A DNA stretch of 64,000 nt from Sulfurimonas sp. HSL-1716 (GTDB lineage Bacteria > Campylobacterota > Campylobacteria > Campylobacterales > Sulfurimonadaceae): assembly GCF_039645975.1 (NCBI RefSeq), contig NZ_CP147918.1:1178001-1242000 (forward strand), read 5' to 3'. Positions 17,251 through 20,764 of the stretch are shown piece after piece. The position numbers were made by a program, and so were the translations under genes. Position 1 is the first letter of the stretch, and the number at the start of each line of letters is the position of its first letter. The notes beneath the pieces are model-generated. The model searched no databases. It was given only the letters and a program-made list of their open reading frames with translations, and was not told where the DNA came from.

Positions 17251-18051
17251 ATGAACAAAAATATTTTATTTGTATGTGTAGAGATACCTAATACCGTATC
17301 AAAAAGAGAGCTTGAAAGCGAATTTCCGGGGATGGTACTAAGCCGGATCGAAAACTCTCTTGTAGGGGAGATCACAAACGACAAACTTATCTTCGTATCC
17401 TCTTTCGGCGTGATCACTTTTTGTAACTTCTCATTTGAAGAGATAATCTCTTTTCTTTCAAGACTGGGCATAAAACAAGCCGAGCACTATAAAACAGCTC
17501 TCATAAACCAAGACTATATGATGATAGTCAATGAAGAGTATACCAAACCGCAGATCGACGAAAATACTATCAAATATGATCGATTTAACAAATCTGTGGG
17601 CTCAATCATCTCTTTGGCTCTTTCTCAAAGCGTAGGGCTTGAGATAAAAGAGCTGTCACTGGAAAAAAAGATGGATGAGAGCAAAACGCTGTATGAAAAG
17701 ATAGAGCAGCTTAAAGTGAAGGATAGGGCAAAGCTGATGAAATTCGCAAGCTCCATAGCAAAAGAGAGATTTCATATCTTAAATCAGCTTTATCTCTTAG
17801 ATAAACCCGACATCCTGTGGGACGATCCCGAGCTGGAATCTTTATACAATCAGCTCTCTTTGCAGTTAGAACTCAAATCACGCTTTGACGTCATAGAATA
17901 CAAGATATCGTACTTAAAAGAATCCGTCGAATTTGCGACCGATATGATAAACCAAAAATCAAGCGAGTTTTTGGAGTGGATAATCATCTGGCTTATTGCA
18001 GTGGAAATAGTGTTTTCTATATATGAATATATGATAAAGCCGTTATTGTAA
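17251..18051 (+). CDS. RMD1/DUF155 family membrane-tethered protein
   Basis: The 266-residue protein has an N-terminal alpha/beta part (NILFVCVEIPN, LIFVSSFGVITF), a long helical central region and a single C-terminal membrane anchor, EWIIIWLIAVEIVFSIYEYM. This is the architecture of DUF155, the family of yeast Rmd1 and human RMND1. The bacterial role is not known. The start ATG has a CGGAG ribosome binding site. It follows the YgjP gene by 27 bases. Confidence 0.75.
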   Translation: MNKNILFVCVEIPNTVSKRELESEFPGMVLSRIENSLVGEITNDKLIFVSSFGVITFCNFSFEEIISFLSRLGIKQAEHYKTALINQDYMMIVNEEYTKPQIDENTIKYDRFNKSVGSIISLALSQSVGLEIKELSLEKKMDESKTLYEKIEQLKVKDRAKLMKFASSIAKERFHILNQLYLLDKPDILWDDPELESLYNQLSLQLELKSRFDVIEYKISYLKESVEFATDMINQKSSEFLEWIIIWLIAVEIVFSIYEYMIKPLL

Positions 18052-18141
18052 AGAGTATCGGCCTGCGAAACATACTTTGGTTAACATAATGTAAATTCTC
18101 TTGAAAATAATTTATTTATACTCTTCTGTAAAAAATATAGG

Positions 18142-18147
18142 TATAAT
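18142..18147 (+). promoter_or_regulatory. Probable -10 box for the diguanylate cyclase
   Basis: A TATAAT hexamer in the context AGGTATAATG lies 34 bases before the chosen ATG at 18176. An ACGGAG ribosome binding site follows in the expected place, supporting the 18176 start over the upstream TTG at 18101. Confidence 0.5.
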
Positions 18148-18175
18148 GAATTCAAATAATTCAACGGAGTCTCCC

Positions 18176-19456
18176 ATGCAGATAATACAAAAATATTTCC
18201 CTGAGATAGAACGATGCGTACACGACTTTAACATAAGTTTGGAAAGTCTTCAGTTTGACAACTCAAAAGATCTTTTGTATACCGGTATTATTACAAAATA
18301 TAAAAAGCTCTTTTTAAAGCTTCTGCTCTCGCCCACTAGAGAAGAAGTCGAAAAAAACACGAAAGAGCTGGTATATTTCACGATCGAGCATGAGATATCC
18401 TATCTGTTTTTGTACAGCGAACTGATCACTGTCGTACGGAATCTCCTGGGCAGCCTGCTAGAAAAACACGATCTGAAATATATCAATGAGATAAACCATT
18501 TTTTTACCGACCATGAGAACCGCATCACTGTTTTGTATCTGCAAAGGTTTTTAAAACAGCTGAAACTGAAAAACGAGCTGCGTCTGTCTCATATCGCGGC
18601 CATGCCGGACAAAAAGTTCATGATACACTACGAAAGCCATATACGATGGATAATCGATCTTATCTTATATATACAAAACAATCAAAAGGATGATGCATAT
18701 CCTCAGTTAAACCCTAATCTTTGTGATTTCGGCAAATGGATGCACAGCGCGACCACTTCATATCTGATCTCAACATCCCATTTTAAAATTATAGAAAAAC
18801 TGCATATCAACCTGCATGACTTAGCAGCAAACGTCGTGAGCCACTGCAGAAGCGAAAACGTACGCCCTTCTACTCTTATTCATCTTATGCAGAGAATCGA
18901 TTATTATTCACTTGAGATCGGTAACGAGATTGCCTTTTTAAATGAGATCGAAGAAAGTGCGAAAGATCCCCTTACCCACCTGTTGACAAGGAGATTGTTC
19001 AATAAGATCATGATAAACAAACTCGACATTGCAAAAGCTGCGGGCAGAGAGTTTGCGATGATGATGTGCGATCTGGATAATTTCAAGCGTATTAACGATA
19101 CTTACGGGCATGCCGTCGGCGATATTGTTTTACAGCATTTCTCCAATGTCTTGGAGCACACGCTTCGTAAGTCGGACTATATATTTAGATTCGGCGGCGA
19201 AGAGTTCGTAGTCCTGCTTTCCATGACGGATAAAGAGGAGGTTCTCGTACTCGCTCAAAAAGTATGTGATGCAACTGCTGCGGCAAAAGTGGATATTGAA
19301 GGTATTTCGATCAAATATACTGTAAGCATCGGGACAATATCGATCATAGTGGACAATAAAACACCTATCAGTCAAGAAACAATCGACAAATACGTCACTC
19401 AGGCAGACGAAAAGCTTTATCTCGCCAAAGAGCGTGGAAGAAACCGGGTAGAATAA
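18176..19456 (+). CDS. Diguanylate cyclase with CZB zinc-binding domain
   Basis: The protein (426 residues from the ATG at 18176) has three parts. Residues 1-140 are a helical region I cannot place with certainty; a globin-like sensor fold is possible. Residues 150-225 fit a CZB zinc-binding domain, with H155 in HIRW, C183 in CDFGKW, and H210 and H214 in HINLH as the four ligands. Residues 255-426 are a GGDEF domain with GGEEF at 340-344 and an intact product-inhibition RxxD (R331-D334). The last two parts resemble E. coli DgcZ, where zinc binding inhibits c-di-GMP synthesis. An ATG at 18146 and a TTG at 18101 are less likely starts. Confidence 0.88.
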   Translation: MQIIQKYFPEIERCVHDFNISLESLQFDNSKDLLYTGIITKYKKLFLKLLLSPTREEVEKNTKELVYFTIEHEISYLFLYSELITVVRNLLGSLLEKHDLKYINEINHFFTDHENRITVLYLQRFLKQLKLKNELRLSHIAAMPDKKFMIHYESHIRWIIDLILYIQNNQKDDAYPQLNPNLCDFGKWMHSATTSYLISTSHFKIIEKLHINLHDLAANVVSHCRSENVRPSTLIHLMQRIDYYSLEIGNEIAFLNEIEESAKDPLTHLLTRRLFNKIMINKLDIAKAAGREFAMMMCDLDNFKRINDTYGHAVGDIVLQHFSNVLEHTLRKSDYIFRFGGEEFVVLLSMTDKEEVLVLAQKVCDATAAAKVDIEGISIKYTVSIGTISIIVDNKTPISQETIDKYVTQADEKLYLAKERGRNRVE

Positions 19457-19514
19457 ATAGTCTGATGGCTTCATATTATAAAATATGAGAAAGACTGCTC
19501 TCTTTTTTTTATGT

Positions 19515-19960
19515 TAAGGTACAACGGTAAGCCGGGTTCTGTTATAGTGATATTAATCTACTTTGATCTTTACAGATCAACTCTAGCGAAACAGTAGCTT
19601 TGTAAGACGCTAACCATCTGTTTCTTGCTACCGGGTTGGGTTTACAAGCTGCCTATATTACTATAGGCACTGGTGGTCTCTTACACCGCCGTTTCACCCT
19701 TACCACTTTATTTGGAACGTTTTTCTGAGCAAAAGCCCGGTAAAACTACGCTAGCCGCTATGGCACTGAAGCACAAAAAAGCTTTCGGCTTTTTCGCAAC
19801 TCAACACCAAAATGCTGACTTGCATTTATAAGTGGCGGTTTATTTTCTGTTGCACTTTCCCTCATATTACTATGGCCATTGGTTAAATGGAACCCTGTCT
19901 TACGGTAGCCCGGACTTTCCTCTTGAACCTGTGCTCAAGCATCAACTTGTTGTACCTGCA
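19515..19960 (-). ncRNA. rnpB: RNase P RNA, type A
   Basis: Read leftward, the region contains the universal rnpB core: GAGGAAAGTCCGGGCT near 19922-19907 and ACAGAACCCGGCTTA near 19541-19527. The ends pair to form P1, with GGTACAAC at 19956-19949 and GTTGTACC at 19525-19518. The length is about 440 nucleotides. A TATCAT -10 box lies at 19968-19963. The 3' end is approximate; an 8-base run of A follows on the RNA strand rather than a canonical terminator. RNase P removes tRNA 5' leaders. Confidence 0.92.
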
Positions 19961-20005: not shown

Positions 20006-20113
20006 GAACAAGTGTTCTTTTCAAACTAAGGATATATTAACAGTTGTTCATATATAATTTTATTTACATTAACAGTTGTTCATAAAAGGATATTTTTTCA
20101 AGAACAACTGTTC
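20006..20113. promoter_or_regulatory. Array of four phased palindromic operator-like sites
   Basis: Four 12-base dyads of the form (G/T)AACA-NN-TGTTC lie at 20006-20017, 20038-20049, 20070-20081 and 20102-20113. Their centres are exactly 32 bases apart each time, about three helical turns. The outer two are perfect palindromes in the arms, while the inner two share TAACAGTTGTTC. The last falls between a -35-like TTTTCA (20095-20100) and a TATAAA -10 box (20118-20123). They probably bind the TetR-type protein encoded at 20141; this is inference. Confidence 0.75.
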
Positions 20114-20140: not shown

Positions 20141-20764
20141 ATGCCGCAAAATAGGGATAAAAACGAAACAAATCCGACAAAAAAAAAGATACTCGATGCT
20201 TCGATGAAGCTTTTTTCACAGCTGGGATATAAAAATGCTTCTGTGAGAAAGATTGCAGCAGAAGTAGGGATAAGAGAAAGCGCTTTATATAATCATTTCA
20301 AGAACAAAGAGGAGATATTTCTAAGCGTAGCTTCAGAGATCTTCTCTACGCCGTTTAATAAAGAGGACAGCCCTGCTCTCACTTCTGTGCAGTTAAGCAA
20401 TCCAAAATCATATCTGCATAAGTTTGCAATGGAATTCAAACTGATAACTTTCGACAAAGCTAAAGAGAGTCTGTTTCGAATATTGATGATAGAACTCTTT
20501 CAAAACAAACAGTTAAGAGAAGGTTTTATAAATGAGTTTCATAACAAAAACATCAAAGCTCTCTCAGGAGTGTTTTTTACGATGATGCAGGAGGGGTCGG
20601 TGAGATCCAGCGATCCGATACTGATGGCAAACGAATTTCTCTCTCCCCTGTTCTACCTTCGCCTCCATGTGACGCTTCTTCGCATAGACAACGAATCTAC
20701 GACCAATCTCTCTACGCAGTTTGAAAAACATGTTGATTTTTTTTGGGAAAGTGTCAAAGCATAA
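20141..20764 (+). CDS. TetR/AcrR family transcriptional regulator
   Basis: The 207-residue protein has a TetR N-terminal helix-turn-helix at about residues 15-60: ILDASMKLFSQLGYKNASV, then IAAEVGIRESALYNHF. The C-terminal ligand domain is helical and unassigned. No transporter or enzyme gene is adjacent. To the left is rnpB, transcribed away, and to the right the end of the oor operon converges on it. Its ligand and outside targets are therefore unknown. The phased palindromes directly upstream are the likely operator. Confidence 0.9.
   Translation: MPQNRDKNETNPTKKKILDASMKLFSQLGYKNASVRKIAAEVGIRESALYNHFKNKEEIFLSVASEIFSTPFNKEDSPALTSVQLSNPKSYLHKFAMEFKLITFDKAKESLFRILMIELFQNKQLREGFINEFHNKNIKALSGVFFTMMQEGSVRSSDPILMANEFLSPLFYLRLHVTLLRIDNESTTNLSTQFEKHVDFFWESVKA

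Follow-up and report, generated by a model that had tools for sequence, protein, structure and literature searches.

A TetR-family gene that recurs across the order of Sulfurimonas sp. HSL-1716 is preceded, as a rule, by four palindromic sites spaced by whole helical turns, and gene and array lie together beside the replication-terminus site dif in most of the informative genomes that carry them. The sites, their spacing rule, their co-occurrence with the gene, the linkage to dif and the lack of other such arrays emerge directly from genome comparison. On this basis we propose that the TetR-family protein, instead of being an ordinary gene switch, may have its role at the chromosome terminus, and we put at about even odds (roughly 0.5) the reading that it represses its own gene cooperatively and that its four-dimer complex is of use to the terminus as well. 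The features at issue lie in a 64,000-nt stretch of the HSL-1716 chromosome (contig NZ_CP147918.1), which we call the window:

18079–18106, minus strand: dif site of the XerCD type, matching the published S. denitrificans dif at 27 of 28 positions, with its XerC half facing the array
18146–19453: gene for a GGDEF protein that also has a zinc-binding CZB domain; in this lineage the gene stands between dif and the array
19512–19958, minus strand: rnpB, also between dif and the array in this lineage; a passenger that is not kept with the array in other families
20006–20017: predicted operator dyad 1, GAACAAGTGTTC, centre 20011.5
20026–20058, plus strand: predicted tetR promoter, with (T/C)TAAG at 20026–20030, a TATAAT -10 box at 20053–20058 and dyad 2 between them
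20038–20049: predicted operator dyad 2, TAACAGTTGTTC, centre 20043.5, directly upstream of the conserved -10 box
20070–20081: predicted operator dyad 3, TAACAGTTGTTC, centre 20075.5, downstream of the predicted transcription start
20102–20113: predicted operator dyad 4, GAACAACTGTTC, centre 20107.5, in the predicted 5′ leader
20141–20764, plus strand: tetR, encoding a 207-aa TetR-family protein (PF00440 TetR_N, 9.4e-16), the predicted binder of the array, from a single-copy orthologue group

The four dyads occupy 20006–20113 with centre-to-centre steps of exactly 32, 32 and 32 bases, as a sequence-only reading of this DNA had reported; its figure of about 50 bases between the rnpB start and the most distal dyad comes out at 47. 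A scan of the whole window with the composite four-site pattern returned this single occurrence, with 0 mismatches, and none of 100 shuffled windows contained the pattern with up to three mismatches allowed. The protein encoded downstream belongs to the TetR/AcrR family by its N-terminal helix-turn-helix, which scores 57.8 bits against PF00440 (TetR_N; cut-off 24). It has an ordinary TetR fold with a ligand-type C-terminal domain, and the structures matched in a structure search were those of TetR-family proteins. When a division-type TetR was sought in the same way, the structural search gave ordinary TetR folds only and no hint of a domain for division or recombination; profile scores pointed to no convincing curated subfamily.

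The earlier assignment of the dyads to the TetR gene holds up, since array and gene co-occur across the order, and the TetR protein is probably what binds them. A profile search (threshold E ≤ 1e-40; weakest match 1.5e-56) found the gene in 109 of the 399 genomes of the order, only one of which has more than a single copy. Among 60 relatives, an initial protein search had yielded 29 clear orthologues of 44–100% identity, and clustered dyads lay upstream of all 29, regardless of genus. Upstream DNA was gathered from 123 orthologous loci in total, at which the largest cluster comprised four sites in 83 cases, three in 27, five in three and fewer in ten. Three loci had no site at all: a broken gene with several stops (G136), a locus with little upstream DNA (G387) and G266, whose orthologue (G266:C69, 25575–26168) has neither an array nor a dif nearby and is a real exception, a natural loss.

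The array thus precedes almost all orthologues and is essentially confined to them; the reversed control pattern gave 0 matches. When a pair pattern with 10–34 bases between cores was searched in the 60 relatives, with the reversed pattern as control, nearly all of its matches lay upstream of a tetR orthologue; no array was found in same-family genomes that lack tetR, such as G001. A second array, on G034:C10, was considered as a distant target and proved to be the promoter of a Sulfurovum-type tetR orthologue. This locus (L052, at the end of the contig) is a Sulfurovum-type dif–array–tetR segment on a short contig, in a genome bin that also holds a Sulfurimonas-type copy, and represents either binning contamination or a second copy. 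A wider regulon was rejected as well, because single sites in the window's own genome were no commoner than the control (42 against 43 for the reversed pattern) and almost all fell inside coding sequence. Perfect sites in 20 genomes showed a mild excess over control that was also seen in genomes without tetR, and across these 20 genomes no other target array or regulon was seen.

The regular spacing first noticed in the window is kept in its relatives, but as whole helical turns: steps within arrays measured 21–22, 30–34, 42–44 or 63–64 bases in 320 of 321 cases, the one outlier being 39. All but four of the 321 steps (317) fell within 1.6 bp of a multiple of 10.5 bp, where chance would give 30%, and the Rayleigh test gave p of about 4e-16 with each genus–step combination counted once (n = 47). 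Clades have their own habits. The usual step is 32 bases, or three turns, in the Sulfurimonadaceae-type family (f1), with 42 or 63 as occasional values; it is 42–43, or four turns, in the Sulfurovum-type family (f6; both family names are inferred), and the f4 and f18 arrays mix 22 with 32–33. Mixed arrays of 42/32/42 and 33/32/42 are present among the matches listed in a collection-wide scan. Dyad letters are 98–99% conserved and spacer letters only 61–71%, so it is the lengths of the spacers that are kept and not their sequences, and kept lengths in whole-turn steps are what same-face binding by neighbouring dimers predicts. Because the spacing varies by whole turns only, the comparison bears out the earlier suggestion that the sites lie on one face of the helix; the accompanying suggestion of cooperative binding is favoured, since a four-site array is the norm. 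Neighbouring TetR dimers would thus probably sit on the same face of the DNA and bind cooperatively. With more than 100 natural arrays, whose spacing jumps between two, three, four and six helical turns and almost never takes half-turn values, the family offers a clean natural experiment on cooperative operator binding.

The array is also tied to the promoter of the gene. In the window it is dyad 2 that adjoins the -10 box, and not the gene-proximal dyad 4, to which the promoter site had been misassigned earlier. A TATAAT-like -10 box follows a dyad by 2 or 3 bases in most clades, and in most Sulfurimonas-type relatives the (T/C)TAAG motif and the -10 box are conserved around the same kind of site. 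Which dyad precedes the box depends on the clade: the window's genus and f4 use site 2, most other Sulfurimonas-type genera use site 3, and f6 uses site 4, which there lies within the spacer of a TTGACA–TATAAT promoter. As the promoter register shifts between clades while the four sites stay, we treat the array as one unit; as the array overlaps the promoter, autorepression is implied, and tetR is likely to be repressed by its own product through these dyads.

The chromosome dimer resolution site dif, at which joined chromosomes are separated before division, lies on the far side of rnpB and the GGDEF–CZB gene, 1.9 kb from the array in the window. This neighbourhood had been missed before, as it takes comparison to see it. 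The site has the 28-bp XerC/XerD motif and the conserved XerD half of a classical dif, is intergenic (the flanking genes end at 18051 and start at about 18146) and stands near the GC-skew switch, with GC skew and AT skew changing sign at about 18–20 kb. The dif pattern has a single match in its own genome and occurs once in most genomes; no difH was found in the window. In most closed genomes, tetR is located roughly half-way round the contig. Carnoy and Roten (2009; PMC2731167) placed the dif of S. denitrificans at 1,122,264, that of Sulfurovum NBC37-1 at 1,186,929 and the difH of Nitratiruptor SB155-2 at 1,001,399. Our dif and difH matches in genomes G355, G233 and G096, which appear to be these three organisms, fall on the published coordinates (PMC2731167), and the gap between array and dif is about 0.9 kb, about 0.6 kb and about 40 bases, respectively.

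A dif or difH was found together with an array at 80 loci initially and at 22 more once longer upstream stretches were used. Among the 111 informative loci, defined as those with at least about 1.3 kb of upstream DNA or with a dif found, 98 have a dif of one type or the other (XerCD or XerH) no more than 2 kb from the array, and 102 have one within 7 kb. Of 53 classical dif sites, 52 turn their XerC half to the array. The gap spans 35–1899 bp in the first set and reaches 6.6 kb with the longer stretches, a few loci exceeding 3 kb; in the difH families it is 36–46 bp in 18 of 27 cases and is roughly fixed in the f4 difH family only. Such variable distances argue against a rigid complex with dif. 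When regions of about 10–14 kb around tetR were compared in 12 genomes of five families, tetR was the sole gene common to all, and the next most widespread neighbours occurred in five genomes, all of one family. Representatives of f4 and f18 carry, beyond difH and divergent from tetR, a tyrosine recombinase of XerH size and kind, so the linkage holds in lineages with either Xer system.

The linkage has its exceptions. In genome G007, tetR and a three-site array lie about 32 kb from dif and there is no array at that dif, an arrangement that shows the array following tetR and not dif. Several loci with long upstream DNA have no recognizable dif. Several other genomes have a dif, no tetR and no array at the dif, so the system is dispensable. 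The protein tree groups f6, f4, f18 and f10, and the pattern of family labels on it needs the fewest possible changes; it is compatible with one origin of f1 and, overall, is what vertical descent would lead one to expect. With vertical descent, one ancestral linkage that was simply retained becomes a serious alternative.

Half-degenerate copies of dif were seen beside the array at two loci, L349 (4228–4255, genome G017) and L263 (near 2749, genome G198). G017 also has an intact dif about 9.5 kb further off, as if a mobile element had inserted at dif through Xer recombination.

In the mechanism that we propose, the neighbouring TetR-family protein would bind the four dyads as operators, as four dimers three helical turns apart on one DNA face that aid each other's binding, and the dimer over the promoter would let the protein repress its own gene. 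The bound array would form a self-limiting four-dimer nucleoprotein complex with a local job at the terminus, marking or preparing it for its last steps, be it dif recombination, terminus separation or coupling to division. We propose local action at the terminus because the gene keeps its place near dif and we see no second clear target. The case for a terminus role of the array and its protein is correlational, and the exact act is speculative. We would go almost, though not quite, as far as even odds for the broader proposal of an undescribed Campylobacterota terminus system, in which an autoregulated TetR-family protein forms a helically phased four-dimer complex beside dif, takes part in dimer resolution, terminus separation or division timing, and is kept with both XerCD/dif and XerH/difH. 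A search of open papers returned nothing on point for a TetR-family protein at dif. If the linkage to dif is functional, it would make the protein a new candidate for a part in the final stages of chromosome segregation, in a phylum with poorly known terminus biology, and an otherwise orphan regulator without visible targets would be accounted for.

A credible competitor, which we nevertheless doubt, is that the protein is an ordinary autorepressor. Its cooperative, phased operators would then give a steep, low-noise self-switch, perhaps with a few weak single-site targets and a response to a ligand, and the dif neighbourhood would be a persisting accident of old gene order. Vertical descent of the families suits this account, as the linkage need not have arisen twice, and so do the presence in most clades of a site on or right beside a promoter element, the TetR fold with its ligand-type C-terminal domain and the G007 array that remains with tetR away from dif. 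The account is harder to reconcile with neighbours that all turn over between families while tetR alone stays near dif, with the recurrence of tetR next to dif whichever of two dif/Xer types a lineage has, with the lack of any other target array or regulon in 20 genomes and with a site number and phasing that are kept while the promoter register shifts.

The favoured terminus reading has a specific form that we regard as unlikely, in which the array would play the part that accessory sequences play at plasmid cer and psi: by wrapping sister dif regions or bringing them together in pairs, it would set when Xer recombination takes place or with what topology. On the chromosome, dif is normally under the control of FtsK (PMC11724359), and the gap in the XerCD families varies from 35 to 1900 bp, with a few loci beyond 3 kb; on the other side stand the position of the array on the XerC-proximal side, as with the cer and psi accessory sequences (PMC11724359), the short gap in two-thirds of the difH-family cases and a helical phasing in line with wrapping. 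Rather improbable is a local barrier, with four tightly bound dimers pausing or stopping forks and FtsK where they converge, as artificial tetO arrays do. Artificial TetR-bound arrays are reported to serve as replication roadblocks (PMC9859026), and this precedent, the terminus position and the phased array speak for it, but the natural array has four sites only, is symmetric without polarity and lies off to one side of dif.

The sequence-only reading had raised a coupling of rnpB to the TetR protein through shared regulation, which is very improbable and which we rejected as a general or conserved role because the array accompanies tetR in families without rnpB nearby. Its appeal lies in the short distance between the distal dyad and the rnpB start in this lineage, and several Sulfurimonas-type genomes do have rnpB between array and dif, but in seven relatives that carry tetR and array and belong to four other families it is absent from the 11-kb regions, and at L349 it lies downstream of tetR. 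A local effect of the TetR protein on rnpB in this lineage is possible. There is next to no chance that the sites are LexA-type (Cheo) boxes, GAAC-N4-GTTC, which the dyad resembles in sequence and which the pair pattern matches at promoters beside lexA-like genes in Firmicutes and Actinobacteria among the matches listed, but we dropped this identity because a LexA DNA-binding domain is lacking from the window's own genome and from 39 of 40 relatives, and the array is found only together with this tetR.

Beyond the Campylobacterota, the matches listed in the collection-wide scan are of mixed kinds, LexA-type sites and other TetR genes among them, and they set no bound on taxonomic range. In Photobacterium sanctipauli (L117, 586–661), a LacI-type regulator and a gene divergent from it have three GAACAGCTGTT(A/C) dyads in 32-base steps between them, a phased array that is unrelated to the one at tetR. 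Paired GAACA-NN-TGTTC dyads 20–22 bases apart occur at L088 and at L087, an f9-family locus where they immediately precede another TetR-family gene; paired GAACATATGTTC dyads 33 bases apart lie between divergent genes at three loci of the f7 family (L091, L092 and L093).

Among known systems, the autoregulated TetR/AcrR-family repressors (TetR, AcrR, MtrR and FadR) share with the present case the fold and probably dyad operators upstream of the repressor's own gene, with a site at the promoter; unlike them, it has four predicted operators, a helical-turn spacing conserved across families and no neighbouring target gene. In two families xerH, difH, the array and tetR lie within one intergenic region, and the literature found on the xerH–difH module of Campylobacterota does not describe tetR and the array as part of it. 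RefZ of Bacillus, which acts on FtsZ at division, is a TetR-family DNA-binding protein like the one here. Throughout a genus, its RBM sites keep the same chromosome positions with respect to a replication landmark (PMC6657595); they lie near oriC on both arms, whereas here one four-site array lies by dif in the promoter of its own gene, and the similarity of the window protein to the RefZ profile is weak (NCBIfam, 46.9 bits; cut-off 180). SlmA, the nucleoid-occlusion protein of E. coli, is also of the TetR family, uses chromosome position and spreads on DNA; its dozens of scattered sites are excluded from the terminus (PMC6657595), whereas the single array here is at the terminus, and the window protein scores 27.4 bits on the SlmA profile (cut-off 120). 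It is with RefZ and with cer/psi that we draw parallels, by analogy and claiming membership of neither. At plasmid cer and psi, where ArgR or ArcA acts with PepA and XerCD, protein sites of about 100–200 bp lie beside the XerC half of a dif-like core (PMC11724359). The array here differs in its TetR-family protein, its chromosomal site, its variable distance to the core (35 bp to 6.6 kb, and so not fixed and short) and its predicted second use as a promoter operator, and it resembles them in adjoining the XerC side of dif.
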